Source: Rhodoferax sp. TS-BS-61-7 (GTDB taxonomy: Bacteria; Pseudomonadota; Gammaproteobacteria; Burkholderiales; Burkholderiaceae_C). From it: 64,000 nt of DNA. The stretch lies in NCBI RefSeq assembly GCF_002943465.1, contig NZ_PTQY01000004.1, forward strand, positions 124,001 to 188,000, written 5' to 3'. Below the pieces are notes generated by a model. That model did not search any database and was not told where the DNA came from. It worked only from the letters and a program-made list of their open reading frames with translations. The translations under genes and the position numbers were made by a program. Every line of letters starts with the position of its first letter. The first letter of the stretch is position 1. Of the stretch, positions 1,114-58,424 are shown piece by piece.

Positions 1114-2250
1114 ATGGAACGCGATCAGGCAACAAAATTTATCAACGACTTGCTCAAGCTGATGGTCAGCCGCAATGGCAGCGACTTGTTCATCACCGCC
1201 GAGTTTCCGCCCGCCATCAAGGTGGACGGCAAGATCACCAAGGTCTCGCCCCAACCGCTGAACTCAGCCCACACCATGGCGCTGGCACGCTCCATCATGA
1301 ACGACAAGCAGGTGGCCGAGTTTGAGCGCACCAAGGAGAGCAACTTTGCCATTGCTCCCGCGGGCATTGGCCGCTTCCGCGCCAACGCGTTTATCCAGCA
1401 GGGCAAGGTCGGGCTGGTGCTGCGGGTGATTCCACAGGTGTTGCCCACCATCGACGGACTGGGCGTGCCCCAGGTACTCAAGGAAGTGGTGATGTCCAAA
1501 CGCGGGCTGACCATCATGGTTGGTGCTACGGGCTCGGGCAAGTCGACCACGCTGGCAGCCATGGTGGACTGGCGCAACGAAAAATCCTTTGGCCATATCA
1601 TCACCATTGAAGACCCGGTGGAGTTTGTGCATGCGCACAAAAACTGCGTGGTGACGCAACGCGAAGTGGGACTGGACACCGACAGCTGGGAAGCGGCACT
1701 GAAAAACACGCTGCGCCAGGCGCCCGATGTGATTTTGATGGGTGAGATCCGTGACCGCGAGACCATGGAACATGCCGTGGCTTTTGCCGAAACCGGCCAC
1801 CTGTGCCTGGCCACCCTGCACGCCAACAGCGCCAACCAGGCGTTGGACCGCATCATCAACTTCTTCCCCGAAGAGCGGCGCAGCCAGCTGCTGATGGACC
1901 TGTCGCTGAACCTCAAGGCTCTGGTTTCGCAGCGCCTGATTCCCAAGCAGGACGGCAAGGGCCGCGTCGCTGCCGTGGAGATCATGATCAACTCACCGCT
2001 GATCTCTGACCTGATCTTCAAGGGCGAAGTGTCCGAGGTAAAAGAGATCATGAAAAAGAGCCGCCAGGCCGGCATGCAGACCTTCGACCAGGCGCTGTTT
2101 GACCTTTACGAAGGCAACGCCATCACCTACGAAGATGCGCTACGCAACGCCGATTCGCTGAACGACCTGCGCCTGCAAATCAAGCTCAACAGTGCACGCG
2201 GCAAGTCCACCGACCTGTCCGCCGGTACCGAGAATTTCGCGATCATGTGA
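1114..2250 (+). CDS. pilU: Type IV pilus ATPase PilU
   Basis: PilU is the PilT-paralogous ATPase that supports PilT-dependent retraction. The 378-residue protein has Walker A GATGSGKSTT, an Asp box (ITIEDPVEF), Walker B (VILMGEIRD) and a His box (CLATLHANSANQALDRI). The C-terminus is longer than that of PilT and lacks AIRNLIRE, both typical of PilU. The ATG is preceded by AAAGAAAGGTAGG, a good ribosome binding site. It probably shares a transcript with pilT. Confidence 0.95.
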   Translation: MERDQATKFINDLLKLMVSRNGSDLFITAEFPPAIKVDGKITKVSPQPLNSAHTMALARSIMNDKQVAEFERTKESNFAIAPAGIGRFRANAFIQQGKVGLVLRVIPQVLPTIDGLGVPQVLKEVVMSKRGLTIMVGATGSGKSTTLAAMVDWRNEKSFGHIITIEDPVEFVHAHKNCVVTQREVGLDTDSWEAALKNTLRQAPDVILMGEIRDRETMEHAVAFAETGHLCLATLHANSANQALDRIINFFPEERRSQLLMDLSLNLKALVSQRLIPKQDGKGRVAAVEIMINSPLISDLIFKGEVSEVKEIMKKSRQAGMQTFDQALFDLYEGNAITYEDALRNADSLNDLRLQIKLNSARGKSTDLSAGTENFAIM

Positions 2251-2314: not shown

Positions 2315-3241
2315 ATGCCCAACATCAACGACAAAACCTACGAACCCTCACCCGCTTACTCCGTCGCCTTTCTGGGCCTGGGCGTCATGGGCTACCCCAT
2401 GGCCGGGCACCTGGCCCGCGCCGGCCACCAGGTCACGGTGTACAACCGGACCGCTACGAAATCTATAGCTTGGTGCGCAGAATTTTCGGGGGCTAGCAGC
2501 CAATTGGGCATCCATGCCCACGCAGCCACACCACACCAGGCAGTGCAGCAGGCCGACATCGTGTTTTGCTGCGTAGGCAATGACGCGGATTTGCGCAGCG
2601 TGACCCTGGGGGCCGACGGTGCCTTTGCCGGCATGAAGCCAGGCGCCATTTTTGTGGACCACACCACAGCGTCTGCCGATATCGCGCGCGAACTCAGCGC
2701 GGCAGCGGCGACCAAAGGCTTGCAGTTCATCGACGCGCCGGTGTCCGGCGGCCAGGCCGGTGCACAAAACGGCCTGCTGACCGTGATGTGTGGGGGTGAT
2801 GCCAATGCATTTGAAACCGTCAAACCGGTGGCCATGGCGTTCTCACGCGCCTTCACGCTGCTGGGTGACAGCGGCGCCGGTCAACTCGCCAAGATGGTGA
2901 ACCAGATTTGTATTGCCGGGCTGGTGCAAGGTCTGAGTGAAGCGATTGCCTTTGGCCAAAAAGCAGGACTGGACATGAACCAGGTGCTGGACGTGATTGG
3001 CAAGGGTGCGGCGCAGAGCTGGCAGATGGACAACCGTGGCAAGACCATGGTGGCCGACAAGTTTGACTTCGGTTTTGCGGTGGACTGGATGCGCAAAGAC
3101 CTGGGCCTGGTGCTGGACGAGGCCAAACGCAACGGTGCCCGCTTGCCGGTGACGGCGCTCGTAGACCAGTTTTATGCCGATGTTCAACAAATGGGCGGCC
3201 AGCGCTGGGACACCAGCAGCCTCATCAAGCGCTTGAAATAA
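2315..3241 (+). CDS. NAD(P)-dependent beta-hydroxyacid dehydrogenase (3-hydroxyisobutyrate dehydrogenase family)
   Basis: This 308-residue enzyme belongs to the 3-hydroxyisobutyrate/tartronate-semialdehyde reductase family, which oxidises 3-hydroxyacids or reduces the matching semialdehydes. Visible signatures are the Rossmann motif GLGVMGYPMA (residues 21-30), the substrate loop DAPVSGGQAGAQNG, and the catalytic-lysine segment GAGQLAKMVNQ. Its substrate cannot be deduced and the neighbours do not help. Residues about 47-63 are encoded by a degenerate copy of the dispersed repeat described at 2454-2501, which has stayed in frame. It converges on the dolP-like gene across a bidirectional terminator. 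Confidence 0.85.
   Translation: MPNINDKTYEPSPAYSVAFLGLGVMGYPMAGHLARAGHQVTVYNRTATKSIAWCAEFSGASSQLGIHAHAATPHQAVQQADIVFCCVGNDADLRSVTLGADGAFAGMKPGAIFVDHTTASADIARELSAAAATKGLQFIDAPVSGGQAGAQNGLLTVMCGGDANAFETVKPVAMAFSRAFTLLGDSGAGQLAKMVNQICIAGLVQGLSEAIAFGQKAGLDMNQVLDVIGKGAAQSWQMDNRGKTMVADKFDFGFAVDWMRKDLGLVLDEAKRNGARLPVTALVDQFYADVQQMGGQRWDTSSLIKRLK
2454..2501 (+). repeat. Dispersed repeat copy E, inside a coding sequence
   Basis: The sequence (GAAATCTATAGCTTGGTGCG then a GGGGGCTAGC block) matches the family seen at five other places. Ungapped against copy F (24159-24207), about 34 of 50 positions agree by eye. It lies wholly within the dehydrogenase gene and keeps the frame open. Confidence 0.65.
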
Positions 3242-18281: not shown

Positions 18282-18310
18282 GGGATAGCCCCTTATTTAC
18301 ATGCCAAACA

Positions 18311-18363
18311 GGGCTCTAGCCCCCGTGGATATTGCGCGAGCAGCTACTAAATGAATAGCATTT
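18311..18363 (-). repeat. Dispersed repeat copy A
   Basis: Read leftward it gives TTTAGTAGCTGCTCGCGCAA followed by TATCCACGGGGGCTAGAGCCC, close to the family consensus. It fills the spacer between the helicase and the 101-residue gene, and its left edge overlaps the TAA stop of the helicase gene (18362-18364). It contains the short inverted repeat GCTAT/GTAGC. Confidence 0.8.
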
Positions 18364-22573: not shown

Positions 22574-22592
22574 GGCAGACACAACGTCTGCC
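22574..22592. repeat. Inverted repeat between convergent genes
   Basis: GGCAGAC-ACAAC-GTCTGCC is a perfect 7-bp stem with a 5-nt loop just after the cytochrome stop. There is no T-tract on either side, so terminator function is uncertain. It abuts the dispersed repeat. Confidence 0.5.
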
Positions 22593-22635
22593 CCCCGTGG
22601 ATATTGCGCAAACAGCTATTGATTAGATAGCAAAT
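22591..22635 (-). repeat. Dispersed repeat copy B, overlapping a gene's 3' end
   Basis: Leftward: TTTGCTATCTAATCAATAGC, TGTTTGCGCAATATCCACGG. The last five codons and the TAG stop of the 183-residue hypothetical gene (22616-22635) are repeat sequence. Confidence 0.8.
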
Positions 22636-23167
22636 GGGTTTGCGCCTGTGGGCTCAGGGCGTACCCAAACCGCTGCGGCAGGTCGACCCGGCGCACCGCG
22701 TCCAGCGGCCACAGGCCCTGCTCCAGCACCTGTGCCGCACGCCCGGTGTCCTGCGTATGGACCAGGCCCACACCCAGGTCGGTGACGAGGTAGAGCCAAC
22801 CGTCTTCGTCCAGCAGCGCCTCTTGCACCTGCACCGTCGCGCCCGTGTGGGCTGCCACCGCACCATCGTCGGCCACACGCCAGACCCAGGGCGTGGCCTC
22901 CAGTTCCACAAACACACGCTGCGGGCCGTTCTGAAAAAACCAGCGCCCGCTGGCGTCGGCCGCGTAGTTGCGCTGGATGAAGTCGATCAGTTTCTCGTGC
23001 TGCAGGCGGCTGCCCTTGGCGCCGGGGCGGCCACTGGCAAACGCGCCCTGCGCCTGGGCCGCATCGTCGCGCATGAACCATTGGCCACGTGCGTCCAACC
23101 CGAGCCAGCCATAACAGTCCGGCACGTTGGGCCACTTGGCCATGGCTTGTTTGACGATATCGTCCAT
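22616..23167 (-). CDS. Conserved hypothetical protein (183 aa)
   Basis: I do not recognise a domain with certainty. The protein is soluble, starts MDDIVKQAMAKWPNVPDCYGW, and is rich in Trp and acidic residues, with segments such as LDARGQWFMRDD and GRWFFQNGPQRVFVELEATP that suggest beta-strand structure. Similar proteins occur in Comamonadaceae. Its C-terminal LLSNQ and stop codon come from a dispersed repeat, so the ancestral C-terminus may have differed. It follows the YheT-like gene at 9 bp and is probably cotranscribed with it. Confidence 0.65.
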   Translation of the reverse strand: MDDIVKQAMAKWPNVPDCYGWLGLDARGQWFMRDDAAQAQGAFASGRPGAKGSRLQHEKLIDFIQRNYAADASGRWFFQNGPQRVFVELEATPWVWRVADDGAVAAHTGATVQVQEALLDEDGWLYLVTDLGVGLVHTQDTGRAAQVLEQGLWPLDAVRRVDLPQRFGYALSPQAQTHLLSNQ

Positions 23168-23176
23168 GCGTACCCT

Positions 23177-24172
23177 TCAAGCCAAGTGCCGGGCCAGCCA
23201 GCCGCCCACGGCATCGGGCATGGTGCGGACATGGCCCGGCACCGGCCCGTGCGGAAAACCCACATGGCCGCCATGCGCGGGCTGCCACAGGGTCACGTGT
23301 GCGCCCACCTCGCCCTGCGAGGGCAGGCACCAGGCGGGTACAAAGGGGTCGTTGCGTGCGTTGACCACCAGCGCTGGCACGCGGATGGCGGCCAGGTGTG
23401 GTTTGGCCGACGCGCGGGCCCAGTAGTCCTCGGTGCTTTTGAAGCCATGCAGCGGCGCAGTGAAGATATTGTCGAACTCGTACAGGTCACGCGCGGCCTT
23501 GAGCGCCGCACCGTCGAACAGGCCCGGGTGCTGCTCTAGCTTGCGCAGCGCCTTAGGCACCATGGTGTTGAGGAACATGCGCGTGTAAACCAGCCGGTTG
23601 AAGCCACGGCCAATCGCGTAACCACCCGCAGCCAGGTCGATGGGCGAACACACGGCCGCCACCCCCTGCACCACCTGCGCAGCGCTGTCGCCCATCTCCT
23701 GCGCCCAGCGCAGCAGGGCATTGCCCCCCAGCGACACCCCTACCGCAATGATGGTGCCACGGTGCTTCGCGCGGAACTGCTGCAGTATCCAGCCGATCTC
23801 GGCAAAGTCGCCCGAGTGGTAGGCACGCGGTGCGTGGTTCAGCTCGCCGCTGCAACCACGGAAATGGGGTACGGCGTAGGCCATGCCGCGAGTGTGGGCA
23901 AAGTCGGCAAAGGCTTCGGCATAGTGGCTGCGGGAGCTGCCTTCCAGGCCGTGGAACAGCACCAGCAAGGGGCGCTCCTCCTTGAGCGACGTCGACGGCG
24001 GCGGAGCGTGGGGGCTAGTCAGCCAGTCCACGTCCACAAAATCCGCGTCAGGCGTAGCCCAGCGTTCGCGCCGGTACTGTGGGTGCGGGCCGAACACGCG
24101 GCGCGAGTACAACGCCGGCCAGATGGTCTGCAGGTTGCCACCGGGCAACCAGCGGGGCGCTACATAATTCAT
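23177..24172 (-). CDS. YheT-family alpha/beta hydrolase
   Basis: The 331-residue hydrolase shows LLVLFHGLEGSSRSHYAEAF (oxyanion region), HFRGCSGELN, the nucleophile elbow GVSLGGNALL, NARNDPFVP (Asp) and a C-terminal HGGHVGF (His), giving a Ser-Asp-His triad. The natural substrate is unknown; the family includes medium-chain esterases. The start at 24172 (MNYVAPRWLPGGNLQ) fits relatives, but that ATG lies within the dispersed repeat. An alternative TTG at 24220 overlaps the upstream stop (TTGA) with AGGTG 5 nt before it and would add 16 residues. Confidence 0.85.
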   Translation of the reverse strand: MNYVAPRWLPGGNLQTIWPALYSRRVFGPHPQYRRERWATPDADFVDVDWLTSPHAPPPSTSLKEERPLLVLFHGLEGSSRSHYAEAFADFAHTRGMAYAVPHFRGCSGELNHAPRAYHSGDFAEIGWILQQFRAKHRGTIIAVGVSLGGNALLRWAQEMGDSAAQVVQGVAAVCSPIDLAAGGYAIGRGFNRLVYTRMFLNTMVPKALRKLEQHPGLFDGAALKAARDLYEFDNIFTAPLHGFKSTEDYWARASAKPHLAAIRVPALVVNARNDPFVPAWCLPSQGEVGAHVTLWQPAHGGHVGFPHGPVPGHVRTMPDAVGGWLARHLA

Positions 24173-24207
24173 AGCTGCTTGCGAAGATTCCACGCGGGCT
24201 AGTGGCA
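24159..24207 (+). repeat. Dispersed repeat copy F, at a gene start
   Basis: Rightward: TAATTCATAGCTGCTTGCGA, then AGATTCCACGCGGGCTAGTGG. It spans the predicted start codon of the YheT-like gene and the spacer to the NTF2-like gene. Confidence 0.7.
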
Positions 24208-24216
24208 CTTTTTGCT

Positions 24217-24672
24217 TCAATGCAGCACCTGGGGCGTCTGCTGGGTGTGGGCCACATCTTCGGCCGTGCCGGGGCTGGCGTGGTGCACCACCAGGCGCCA
24301 GCCTTGCGGGGTCTTGTGGTACACGTTGGTGGCCAACACATGGGCCTTGGCCGGGCCTTCGGGGGTCATCACCTCCACCCGCTCCAGCACATGGTGCACC
24401 GCGCTGGCCAGCGAGTCGACGCGCCGAATTTGCTCGGCCTGCACATGCACCGCACCGCCGTGCGCAAACAGCGCATCAAACGCGGCGCGGATGGCGCCCA
24501 TGCCCACCACACGCGGGCCGCCGGGGTGGATGCAGGCAATCTCGTCCTCATCGGCCCAGCAGGCCATGAGCTTTTCGATGTCGCCGGTCTGCAGCGCCTC
24601 GTAAAACGCGGCTTCGACTTCGTCGGGGGTGCCGCCCAAGGCGGCATGCAGTGTGGCTTTGTGTCGGGGCAT
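24217..24672 (-). CDS. NTF2/SnoaL-like domain protein
   Basis: This is a 151-residue cone-shaped-fold protein with the SnoaL/DUF4440 pattern: EVEAAFYEALQTGDIEKLMACWADEDE, HPGGPRVVGMGAIRAAFDAL and a C-terminal GWRLVVHHASPG. The function is unknown; the family includes ketosteroid-isomerase-like proteins and stress-associated proteins. GGGAGAG about 8 nt upstream of the ATG fixes the start. Confidence 0.8.
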   Translation of the reverse strand: MPRHKATLHAALGGTPDEVEAAFYEALQTGDIEKLMACWADEDEIACIHPGGPRVVGMGAIRAAFDALFAHGGAVHVQAEQIRRVDSLASAVHHVLERVEVMTPEGPAKAHVLATNVYHKTPQGWRLVVHHASPGTAEDVAHTQQTPQVLH

Positions 24673-36936: not shown

Positions 36937-36999
36937 CGCAAATTGCTATCAATTAAGTAGCTGCTAGCGCACATCTGATGTGGGCTAGCAGCTATTTTT
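36937..36999. repeat. Dispersed repeat copy C forming a terminator hairpin
   Basis: AATTGCTATCAATTAAGTAG then CTGCTAGCGCA match the family consensus. This copy contains perfect 11-bp arms TAGCTGCTAGC (36958-36968) and GCTAGCAGCTA (36984-36994), an inner CACAT/ATGTG stem, and TTTTT after it. It lies between the convergent lipA and 37003 genes and probably acts as an intrinsic terminator for lipA. Confidence 0.85.
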
Positions 37000-37002
37000 G
37001 CG

Positions 37003-37479
37003 TCAAGGCTTGGCGTAGCCGCCCTCGACCCACGCCGACGCACTGGCTCGGTTCAGCTTGAACCCTGGCGAGACCCGCACCTGCGCCAGCAAGTCATCCC
37101 CCGCATCCCGGGCACTGAGCATCGCGCTCGGGTTGTCTTCGTCCGGTTCAATGTCCAGAAACACCGTGACCCGCCCTTGGGCAGCCCCGACCTCGATACT
37201 TTGATGCAGGCTGGCATGTAATTGTTGCTCGCTGCGGCGCACAAACTCCCGGGCGGTTTTCACCAGCGTCAGGAAAGCACTCTGGTCCAGCGGCTTGGGG
37301 TTCTTTTTGTCGCGCCCCATGGTCCAGGGGCCCACCAGTGCCGGCTCGGAGGCGCCATCGGCCGTCATCGCCACCGCCCAGCCATCGTCGTCTTCATTCT
37401 TCACCACGCGGGCCGTCCAGCCGTCGCTGATCCACAGGCGCGGCTCCTGGGTTTTCATGTCGGATTCGTTCAAGTTCAT
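37003..37479 (-). CDS. Conserved hypothetical protein (158 aa)
   Basis: This is a soluble, mixed alpha/beta protein with WISDGWTARVVKNEDDDGWAV, GPWTMGRDKKNPKPLD and a C-terminal ASAWVEGGYAKP. I recall relatives in Comamonadaceae without known function. The frame is open to 37686 but similarity seems to begin near MKTQEPRLW, so the start is either 37479 (chosen) or 37458; neither has a clear Shine-Dalgarno. Confidence 0.65.
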   Translation of the reverse strand: MNLNESDMKTQEPRLWISDGWTARVVKNEDDDGWAVAMTADGASEPALVGPWTMGRDKKNPKPLDQSAFLTLVKTAREFVRRSEQQLHASLHQSIEVGAAQGRVTVFLDIEPDEDNPSAMLSARDAGDDLLAQVRVSPGFKLNRASASAWVEGGYAKP

Positions 37480-48764: not shown

Positions 48765-50657
48765 ATGCTGCCCCAGCTCGTCAGCACGGTTTTCTGGCTT
48801 GCGGTCCTGGCGCTGGGCTGGGGCCTGGCGCGCCGCGCACTTGTATGGAAAAAGGGCCGCAAGCCCCCGGTGGATATGCGCGGGCTGCTACAAATTCCGA
48901 AGCGTTATTTTGTCGACCTGCACGATGTGGTGGCCCGTGAACCCTTCGTCGCCCGAGCCCACGTAGGGGTGGCCGGCGGCGCCATCCTCGCGCTGGCACT
49001 CATCGCTTTGAACTACGGCCTGGGCCTGTACCTGCGGGTGCTGGATGCAGCACTGCTGTTCGCCGGTGTGCTGATGGTGGCCGGCGCCAGCGCCATGGCC
49101 TGGCGCCGCCGCGCAGCACCGGCCCGCCTCTCGCGCGGCCCCTGGAGCCGCCTGCCATTCAGCTTGCTGCTGTTTGCTCTGGCCGTCAGCCTTACCTCCG
49201 CCGTGGCCCTCACCGGCACCGCACTCGCCCCGTGGCTGGCTGGCCTCATCAGCCTGGCGTTTGCTGCAGGCGCTGCGGAGCTGGCACTGGGCATCGGCCT
49301 GGGCGGCCCCATGAAACATGCGGTGGCCGGCTTGCTGCACCTGGGCTTGCACCCACGGCCCGAACGCTTTGGCACACCGGCTGAAAAGCGCTTTGCCACC
49401 GCCCTGCGCCCGCTCACCTTGACGGCCGATGACATGGGCGTGGGCAAGCCCGCCGACTTTGCCTGGAACAAGCTGCTGTCGTTTGATGCCTGCGTGCAGT
49501 GCGGCAAGTGCGAGGCCGCCTGCCCGGCCTTCGCGGCGGGCCAGCCCCTGAACCCCAAGAAGCTGATCCAGGACCTGGTGGTGGGCATGAGTGGCAGCAC
49601 CGACGCAGCCTATGCCGGCAGCCCCTACCCCGGCCAACCCGTCGGCCAGCATGGTGGCGCACCCCAGCTGCCCATCGTGGGTGGCCTGATCAGCAGCGAC
49701 ACCCTGTGGTCCTGCACCACCTGCCGCGCCTGTGTGCAGGAATGCCCCATGCTGATCGAGCATGTGGACAGCATCGTTGACATGCGCCGCCACCTGACCC
49801 TGGTGGGCGGTGTGGTGCCCAACAAGGGCAACGAAGCGCTGGACAACCTGCGCGACACCGACACCGTGGGTGGCTTCCCTCTGAGCGCCCGCCACCACTG
49901 GGCGGCAGACCTCAACGTGCCGGTGCTGGCCGCTGGTGAATCGACCGACTGGCTGGTGCTGGTGGGTGAAGGCGGCTTTGACATGCGTTATCAGCGTACT
50001 TTGCGTGCCTTCATCAAGACGCTGCAAAAGGCCGGCCTGAAGATCGCCCTGCTGGGCGCCGCAGAAACTGACGGGGGCGACCTGGCCCGCCGCCTGGGCG
50101 ACGAGGCAGGCTTCCAACGCTTGGCACGGCAGCTCATGGCCACCTTGCAGGCGCGCAGCTTCAAAGGCATCGTCACCGCAGACCCGCACCTATTCCACCT
50201 GCTCAAGAACGAATACCCCGCACTGGGTGGCCACTTCACGGTACTGCACCACACCCAACTGCTGGCCGAGCTGATGGCCCAGGGCAGCCTGAAAGCCACC
50301 CGCAGCGCCGGCGTGGACAGCCTGACCTACCACGACCCCTGCTACCTGGGCCGCTATGGCCAAGAGGTGGACGCCCCCCGCGCCGTGCTCAAGGGCATTG
50401 GCATCAAGGTGGTGGAAATGGAACGCCATGGGGTACGCGGCCGCTGCTGCGGCGGCGGCGGCGGTGCGCCGTTCACTGACATTCCTGGCAGCACCCGCAT
50501 TCCCGACATCCGCATGGCAGACGCAAAAGCCACCGGCGCAGCCGTGGTGGCCGTGGCCTGCCCGCAATGCACCGCCATGCTCGAAGGCGTGGTGGGCCCA
50601 CGCCCCGAAGTGCGCGACATTGCCGAACTCGTGGCCCACGCTGTGGAGGCCGTATGA
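48765..50657 (+). CDS. dgcB: Dimethylglycine demethylase subunit DgcB (membrane Fe-S protein)
   Basis: The 630-residue protein has N-terminal membrane segments (first at about residues 5-22, several to about 190), two 4Fe-4S motifs (Cys243/246/249/253 in CVQCGKCEAACP; from Cys317 in CTTCRACVQECP) and CCG-type motifs of the heterodisulfide-reductase family (HDPCYLGRY, RGRCCGGGGGAPF). It probably passes electrons from DgcA and ETF to the quinone pool. Its stop overlaps the next start by ATGA-type overlap. Confidence 0.92.
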   Translation: MLPQLVSTVFWLAVLALGWGLARRALVWKKGRKPPVDMRGLLQIPKRYFVDLHDVVAREPFVARAHVGVAGGAILALALIALNYGLGLYLRVLDAALLFAGVLMVAGASAMAWRRRAAPARLSRGPWSRLPFSLLLFALAVSLTSAVALTGTALAPWLAGLISLAFAAGAAELALGIGLGGPMKHAVAGLLHLGLHPRPERFGTPAEKRFATALRPLTLTADDMGVGKPADFAWNKLLSFDACVQCGKCEAACPAFAAGQPLNPKKLIQDLVVGMSGSTDAAYAGSPYPGQPVGQHGGAPQLPIVGGLISSDTLWSCTTCRACVQECPMLIEHVDSIVDMRRHLTLVGGVVPNKGNEALDNLRDTDTVGGFPLSARHHWAADLNVPVLAAGESTDWLVLVGEGGFDMRYQRTLRAFIKTLQKAGLKIALLGAAETDGGDLARRLGDEAGFQRLARQLMATLQARSFKGIVTADPHLFHLLKNEYPALGGHFTVLHHTQLLAELMAQGSLKATRSAGVDSLTYHDPCYLGRYGQEVDAPRAVLKGIGIKVVEMERHGVRGRCCGGGGGAPFTDIPGSTRIPDIRMADAKATGAAVVAVACPQCTAMLEGVVGPRPEVRDIAELVAHAVEAV

Positions 50658-58222: not shown

Positions 58223-58270
58223 CTTAATTGCTATTTATTTAATAGCTGTTTGCGCAATATCCATGGGGCT
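58223..58270 (+). repeat. Dispersed repeat copy D
   Basis: TAATTGCTATTTATTTAATA, then GCTGTTTGCGCAATATCCATGG. Shows the internal inverted repeat GCTATT/AATAGC. It lies in the 254-bp spacer after gbdR; the rest of that spacer (58271-58424) is the presumed promoter region of the next gene, without recognisable motifs. Confidence 0.85.
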
Positions 58271-58424
58271 CAACGGCACATTCTGCCTAAATTTGTGCAT
58301 TCCCCACCCATGCCGTTCTGGAGCAATTTCACGTCGTTCTGAGCAAAGTTAGACACCGCCAAGCTGCCAAAGTCGCAGGGCGTTTAGTTCGACACTCCCC
58401 CACCTCACACGATTGGAACTGGTC

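Follow-up and report, generated by a model that had tools for sequence, protein, structure and literature searches.

A dispersed, dialect-forming DNA motif of about 60 bp has a coding copy in a dehydrogenase gene of Rhodoferax sp. TS-BS-61-7

How a dispersed repeat comes to sit within a protein-coding gene is a question raised by a dehydrogenase gene near the start of the stretch of DNA analysed here, a 64,000-nucleotide segment of contig NZ_PTQY01000004.1 of Rhodoferax sp. TS-BS-61-7 that we refer to as the window. The gene and the element inside it are the following.

2315-3241, plus strand: beta-hydroxyacid dehydrogenase gene, 308 amino acids, with NAD_binding_2 and NAD_binding_11 domains (from Pfam and PDB homologues); host of the repeat copy.
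2452-2512, plus strand: coding repeat copy in the dehydrogenase gene (from nhmmer profile scores and synonymous recodings).

The product belongs to the 3-hydroxyisobutyrate/tartronate-semialdehyde dehydrogenase superfamily (PF03446 plus PF14833), and every score that it obtained against NCBIfam equivalogs fell below cut-off. An earlier note made from the DNA letters of the window had placed the copy at 2454-2501, encoding about 17 residues just after the cofactor-binding motif (VYNRTATKS region). This position stands, but the extent is now 2452-2512, which corresponds to codons 47-66 or about 20 residues (ATKSIAWCAEFSGASSQLGI) C-terminal to VYNRT.

The repeat family came to notice through copies between genes, at 18297, 22587 and 58229. 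BLAST with an intergenic copy gave 30 copies, from which a first profile was built. Against this profile of 66 positions the dehydrogenase copy aligns ungapped at 19.4 bits (nhmmer, E=3.4e-5). When a profile of 68 sampled copies is used the score is 31.7 bits, and with the 44 of these that are not inside genes it is 21.1 bits (E=1e-5); the dehydrogenase copy was left out of both profiles, whose members were collected with an iterated profile in which it had at one time been present. When the site was recoded synonymously by codon usage with the protein kept, the maximum over 20,000 recodings was 11.0 bits with the first profile and 10.9 bits with the intergenic profile. As none of the recodings reached the observed score, the likeness of this site to the family is a DNA-level one and not a by-product of the protein. 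The profile match and the recodings together uphold the claim that a member of a dispersed family lies in frame inside this gene, and the site is confirmed as a degenerate member of a family of about 60-66 bp.

One alternative is chance, in which the resemblance to the repeat is an accident of writing KSIAWCAEF in ordinary codons. The copy is indeed weak: when the site is searched with plain BLAST in its genome at E<=0.001, it recovers just itself, so that the copy is recognisable to a profile only. Against chance stand the recodings, the lack of any match of at least 10 bits in the reversed DNA of a 464-kb sample of the genome, the agreement of the copy with the genome's dialect (described below) and its codon usage. 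Specifically, ATA encodes the isoleucine in 25 of the 28 orthologues that have the protein motif K[SA]I[AS][WF], and this is a rare codon that makes up 59 of 1325 isoleucine codons across 154 dehydrogenase genes, those 25 included. The earlier note had also considered that orthologues in distant families might have the same DNA pattern through conserved protein sequence. The 15 orthologues examined from other families (L202-L216) are all without it; like many orthologues within the family, they have at the copy site a type, AAKAEAWVAEFGG, with GC-rich codons. Chance similarity arising from the protein is thus not indicated, and we regard this reading as very improbable.

The 464-kb sample, which comprises the first 200 kb of contig C1, the first 200 kb of contig C8 and the window, contains 67 copies of at least 10 bits with the first profile, or about 144 per Mb, and by extrapolation there are roughly 600 copies per genome. 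This density rests on the sample because a covariance model (R1) scored 150 of 2198 own-genome candidates; run over 12 genomes at E<=1e-9, the model was too strict for counting (3 matches in genome G007 and none in the other 11). Seven window copies are above the inclusion threshold, where the earlier note had counted six members of what is indeed a real family, and two of the seven lie in coding sequence, at 2452-2512 (plus strand) and 48841-48904 (minus strand). Besides the dehydrogenase copy, the window copies are the following, with their retention in two relatives (G007 and G034) and in a set of eight relatives where available.

18297-18360, minus strand: intergenic copy, top score in the window, 66.5 bits; place and orientation shared with G007 and G034; 6 of 8 relatives.
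22587-22633, minus strand: copy overlapping the 3' end of predicted gene 22616-23167 (minus strand), 51.3 bits; kept in G007 and G034; 4 of 8 relatives.
24158-24220, plus strand: copy at the predicted start of gene 23177-24220 (minus strand), 42.5 bits, 50.1 with a later profile; kept in G007 and G034; 7 of 8 relatives.
36944-37006, plus strand: intergenic copy, 26.2 bits, 43.3 with a later profile; place and orientation kept in G007 and G034.
48841-48904, minus strand: antisense coding copy in the DUF3483/Fe-S gene 48765-50657 (plus strand; PF11982), about codons 26-46, 17.5 bits.
58229-58291, plus strand: intergenic copy, 59.8 bits; outside the mapped stretches of the relatives.

The start of gene 23177-24220 may be misplaced. 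The copy at 48841-48904 scores 17.0 bits with the copies not inside genes, which is the fair figure, and 35.0 bits with an all-copy profile that contains it, and none of 4000 recodings of this site scores as high. It sits within the conserved DUF3483 domain of the Fe-S protein.

The earlier note had held protein-internal repeats to be uncommon and had proposed a count of coding against intergenic copies. In the sample, predicted genes contain 23 copies, as compared with 27 located between genes and 17 that overlap a gene edge, so that in-gene copies are not uncommon in this genome; since the sample genes were called by a codon-usage script, some in-gene calls near gene starts (24158, and 22138 on contig C1) may be wrong. 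Copies outside genes cluster near stop codons, and within 60 bases of a 3' end there are 24 in the same and 19 in the opposite orientation to the gene. Only one of 42 classified copies lies between divergent genes, as compared with 32 divergent regions among 199 intergenic regions of at least 40 bases. No strand bias is evident among the copies, and their spacing is more even than random on contig C1 (P=0.027) and not significantly so on C8 (P=0.16). Inside genes, 13 copies are sense and 10 antisense, with one frame per orientation used by 9 of the 13 and 8 of the 10, respectively; read off the sequence, these preferred frames are those in which the family consensus has few or no stops.

The conserved positions of the motif are spread over about 60 bases. 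A search of the window at Rfam gathering scores returned a tRNA and no other family, and RNA structure was rejected as the unifying feature given a weak consensus fold (3 pairs, -1.26 kcal/mol). This fold also bears on the alternative of a codon or RNA effect, in which a rare-codon stretch is kept for translation pausing or RNA structure and the repeat likeness is secondary. Such an effect would fit the conserved rare ATA codon and the composition of the copies, whose GC content is 47% as against 62% for the sample, but besides the weak fold the presence of in-gene copies in both orientations argues against it, and we consider it improbable.

The excess of DNA-level likeness extends to the in-gene copies as a whole. 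When 359 predicted genes were recoded 40 times, the mean number of matches was 0.95 at 10 bits or more, as compared with 23 observed, and 0.2 as compared with 20 at 15 bits or more. Site by site, none of 4000 recodings matched for 21 of the 23 in-gene copies, and 3 and 2 of 4000 matched for the other two. The similarity thus goes beyond what the proteins require.

We compared 10 of the 23 in-gene copies, located in 9 proteins, with solved homologues. At five of them there is no indel at the copy (ManC against 2cu2, the second ProA copy, IcmF, PurK and ProRS); for ManC, comparison with 2x5s and 2qh5 gives gaps of 2-3 residues at the copy's end. The other five show a gain of residues at the copy, amounting to 3 in ArgF, 6 in LeuRS, 9 in the dehydrogenase, 14 in the first ProA copy and 19 in UvrA. 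The first ProA copy and the UvrA copy look like insertions, and the extra ProA segment is present in 11 of 30 loci, with profile scores of 2.4 to 53 bits, and absent from 19. Note that proA (L237; contig C1, 99753-101201) has two copies, one with the 14 extra residues and one on a native segment. The alignments with solved homologues show copies apparently lying on native segments of the same length in other enzymes, and copies so placed cannot be unit insertions.

PurK is a case in point. Its length over the stretch is equal in 29 of 30 loci. The codons TCN-ATA-GC occur in 12 of the 30, our genome included, and the others use GC-rich codons for the same or similar residues. Carriers and non-carriers of TCN-ATA-GC show both synonymous and nonsynonymous differences, and NLPLALVDR of our genome is nearer to the repeat-encoded peptide than is NVPEALAER of genome G014. 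Both modes, insertion and same-length change, thereby appear to be represented among the in-gene copies, and for several coding copies we favour motif-directed substitution over the pasting in of a unit. No flanking word duplication was found at the copies, where the mean longest shared word was 3.41 as compared with 3.63 in controls.

For the dehydrogenase itself, 154 orthologues were aligned and a gene tree was built from them without the repeat region. The core AAATCN-RTAGC is present in 32 of the 154, in 14 of 98 genus codes, and requires at least 17 changes on the tree, a patchy history that we count against change in place. Among orthologues of the shortest class (41 codons) the core is found in none of 46, as compared with 32 of 108 longer ones, so that length and core are not independent and an indel may have brought in part of the motif. 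Within the length class of the window gene (49 codons), the core is present in 17 of 45 orthologues and absent from 28. Over its first dozen codons the copy can be aligned to the outgroups without a gap, ATKSIAWCAEF standing against the AAKAEAWVAEF type of order-level outgroups, with just 4-8 codons extra, and the second half of the copy falls where the loop is longer. In the comparison with 3w6u, a distant solved homologue, 9 residues are gained and the aligner's gap lies inside the copy. The nearest relatives examined already carry the copy in some degree, and its origin was not caught among them.

These alignments bear on the two routes that the earlier note had considered most directly, in-frame insertion of the element or replacement of native sequence as a block. 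Neither is borne out for the whole unit, given the gap-free first dozen codons, the mere 4-8 extra codons and the 28 orthologues of the same length that lack the core; a partial old insertion at the second-half end of the copy is possible, in keeping with the shortest class. A related alternative is that a small mobile repeat (REP- or MITE-like) inserted long ago, lengthened the loop by a few codons and then eroded under protein selection. The missing core in the shortest class and the residues added in ProA and UvrA speak for such an event, but the gap-free alignment with the order-level outgroup type, the five other in-gene copies on indel-free segments and the lack of a target duplication signal speak against it, and in view also of the conservation and transposase evidence given below we judge it unlikely, though the most credible of the alternatives.

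The note's third route, in which the family began as coding sequence, can be considered in the same alignment. Descent of the repeats from the dehydrogenase segment would sit well with how widespread the core is in the gene (the 14 genus codes above), but the family consensus lacks the AAA, TGG and GAA-TT codons (Lys, Trp and Glu-Phe) that the gene has kept, and outgroups use GC-rich codons at the site. Because the consensus is without these codons, an origin from the coding sequence is unlikely in general, and we give this particular descent the least credence of all.

We next consider the conservation of the copies. All five mappable window copies, that of the dehydrogenase included, keep their place (within 150 bases) and orientation in both G007 and G034, with 69-82% DNA identity in the mapped segments; the copies at 48838 and 58229 are outside the mapping. 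At the 36944 site G034 has an additional, weaker overlapping match on the opposite strand. The counts listed above for eight relatives (sites 24158, 22587 and 18297) were obtained with the own-genome profile at 12 bits; none of these three sites has a copy in every relative, which we count against evolution in place. Such stable places in two relatives are a further point against an old mobile insertion.

Each of the three genomes (our own, G007 and G034) has a distinct family consensus. Copies of the relatives were counted with genome-specific profiles, for which reversed controls gave 0, 0 and 1 match. One base, chosen after inspecting the five mapped sites, distinguishes GGGC(T)AG in our genome from GCGC(T)AG in G007 and G034. 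Among intergenic and edge copies our genome has G in 33 and C in 5 (45 copies, 7 with another base or none), and the relatives have G in 5 and C in 42 (49 copies, 2 unscored; Fisher 5e-13). The in-gene copies follow suit, with G in 16 and C in 5 in our genome (26 copies, 5 other or unscored) as compared with G in 4 and C in 18 in the relatives (23 copies, 1 other; Fisher 2e-4), the 5 and the 4 being exceptions to the dialect; these counts are not fully independent, since some of the relatives' copies are orthologous to window copies. In the dehydrogenase, our genome has GGG-GCT-AGC where G007 and G034 have GGC-GCC-AGC, GGG and GGC both encoding glycine. GGG accounts for 1058 of our genome's 10,430 glycine codons, so general codon bias is no explanation of the dialect base. 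Alanine codons vary likewise, with GCC in our PurK and GCG in that of G007 and G034, and GCC in our ProA and GCG in that of G034. When each of the three dehydrogenase copies was scored with the profiles of all three genomes, the dialects did not separate (own-copy scores of 40.0, 37.5 and 39.5), a comparison that is uninformative because each profile contains its own genome's copy. Overall, places and orientations are largely conserved, and coding copies tend to follow genome-specific dialects at synonymous positions; dialect differences at orthologous sites again tell against an old insertion.

The explanation that we consider probable is that the dehydrogenase site evolved in place under a force linked to recognition, either selection or molecular drive. 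The copy would represent, in coding sequence, a DNA motif of about 60 bp that occurs genome-wide. The copy itself would have arisen mostly through base substitutions and small indels in a native loop already tolerant of change, and it would have been pulled toward the dialect common to the genome's other copies. A cellular factor is presumed to recognise the motif, and the copies may be maintained by selection or by molecular drive (biased uptake and recombination), as has been proposed for DNA uptake sequences. The stable places, the dialects shared by intergenic and coding copies, the presence of both orientations and the coding copies that appear to have formed in place all fit a recognised motif kept by such a force. 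If this is true, a DNA-level force has changed amino acids of several enzymes, PurK and the dehydrogenase among them, a conclusion that would bear on how dispersed repeats come to sit in protein genes and would give a defined target for finding the recogniser protein. More tentatively, and with less than even confidence, we propose a new type of recognition system in the Comamonadaceae with a long, dialect-forming motif in roughly 600 copies, in which drive rewrites codons and amino acids of housekeeping enzymes in place as the dialect shifts genome-wide in concert.

DNA uptake sequences are the nearest parallel, as they also occur within genes and also form dialects; here the comparison is made from sequence alone. 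Like the DUS of Neisseriaceae and the USS of Pasteurellaceae, the family has hundreds of copies in both orientations in coding and intergenic DNA, with coding copies in preferred frames. Dialects between relatives are described for DUS in the part of the literature available to us (PMC3630211), and here they are seen at conserved sites in two relatives only. In contrast, the family lacks a short core of some 10 bases, its length of about 60 bp exceeds what would be expected of an uptake sequence, and it is under-represented in coding DNA; the DUS is given as 10 nucleotides in the accessible text of one study (PMC2397512). According to the same text, uptake sequences are conserved and kept by mutation-selection balance or drive, and in Neisseria many new ones arise by recombination and not by point mutation (PMC2397512). 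As far as that text goes, such an origin differs from our in-place reading of PurK and counts against it. The gene for the competence channel, comEC (L347; contig C3, around 18 kb), has in-gene copies at 1819-1883 and 2907-2971, of 46.3 and 36.5 bits and in opposite orientations. ComEC is common, and neither its presence nor its two copies is proof of an uptake role. Our literature searches found neither the motif letters of the family nor a paper combining 'DNA uptake sequence' with Comamonadaceae.

REP/BIME repeats, which are associated with RAYT transposases, are short, dispersed and found near gene 3' ends in both orientations. The copies described here resemble them in all of these respects, but the family is without a strong consensus hairpin and has many in-gene copies, some on native segments. 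Our genome contains one Y1_Tnp gene (1171-1953, minus strand, in L091), which we take to be TnpA-REP/RAYT, and a 35.8-bit copy at 1122-1175 overlaps its 3' end. No further copy of at least 8 bits is present in this 3.3-kb locus, so that the gene is flanked on its 3' side only. Although the transposase gene and its overlapping copy lend something to the old insertion, a single copy on one side counts against it, and mobilisation by RAYT was rejected, the family being commonly located at gene 3' ends anyway.

Two further repeat classes can be compared on the available portions of the papers describing them. Rickettsia palindromic elements share with the family the in-frame translation of repeat DNA within unrelated genes, but they are insertions of about 150 bp (PMC10969869), whereas five of the 10 compared family copies add no residues. 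The betaproteobacterial repeat element (BRE) is also dispersed in Comamonadaceae with some copies in coding sequences (PMC3110155); it is about 90 bp long, 69% GC in Bordetella, forms tandem arrays and has 4 copies in Rhodoferax ferrireducens. By this partial description the present family would appear to be distinct, at 47% GC and an extrapolated 600 or so copies per genome.

Beyond the closest relatives, 80 named loci around the dehydrogenase gene (1.28 Mb) contain 51 copies, with none in the reversed control. Copies occur in loci assigned to Rhodoferax, Polaromonas, Acidovorax, Simplicispira, Diaphorobacter and Giesbergeria, and further ones fall into two unspecific bins or into loci that carry no label. 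No copies were found in the small samples labelled Ramlibacter, Variovorax, Hydrogenophaga, Limnohabitans, Achromobacter and nine other genera. This survey covers one to seven loci per labelled genus, with 36 of the 80 loci unlabelled, and used one profile trained on three Rhodoferax-group genomes. The Diaphorobacter nitroreducens locus (L394) has another dialect, with an internal GCGCTT...AAGCGC palindrome, and its dehydrogenase copy has TGC-GCT and not TGC-GCA.

Anonymous motif pairs reported from other genomes can be compared with these copies. In the part of that report available to us (PMC5217627), Acidovorax ebreus TPSY has 114 copies of GCTTAT(N)5AAGCG, Polaromonas naphthalenivorans CJ2 has 125 copies of ATAGCT(N)22CAAAAG, 18 of them in genes, and Rhodoferax ferrireducens T118 is the genome with the most motif pairs (140). 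As described there, the motifs are mainly intergenic and near genes, with the ebreus copies rarely between divergent genes, as in our family; unlike our family, they are given in that part as separate motifs, with no dialects, reading frames or orthologous sites. GCTTAT(N)5AAGCG occurs 3 times in the Diaphorobacter locus, all 3 in 3 of its 5 family copies; the consensus of the window genome does not contain it, and the comparison runs through Diaphorobacter. The exact Polaromonas pattern is present in none of 451 loci, which do not include P. naphthalenivorans CJ2, so that the Polaromonas link rests on ATAGCT alone. The analysis links a motif listed anonymously for a single genus with a family that has related dialects elsewhere.

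Finally, a long GGGGTCAGA...TCTGACCCC inverted repeat lies at 2255-2300 of the window, between the dehydrogenase gene and an upstream ATPase gene that is presumably PilT/PilU-like, and it may be a terminator or another repeat.
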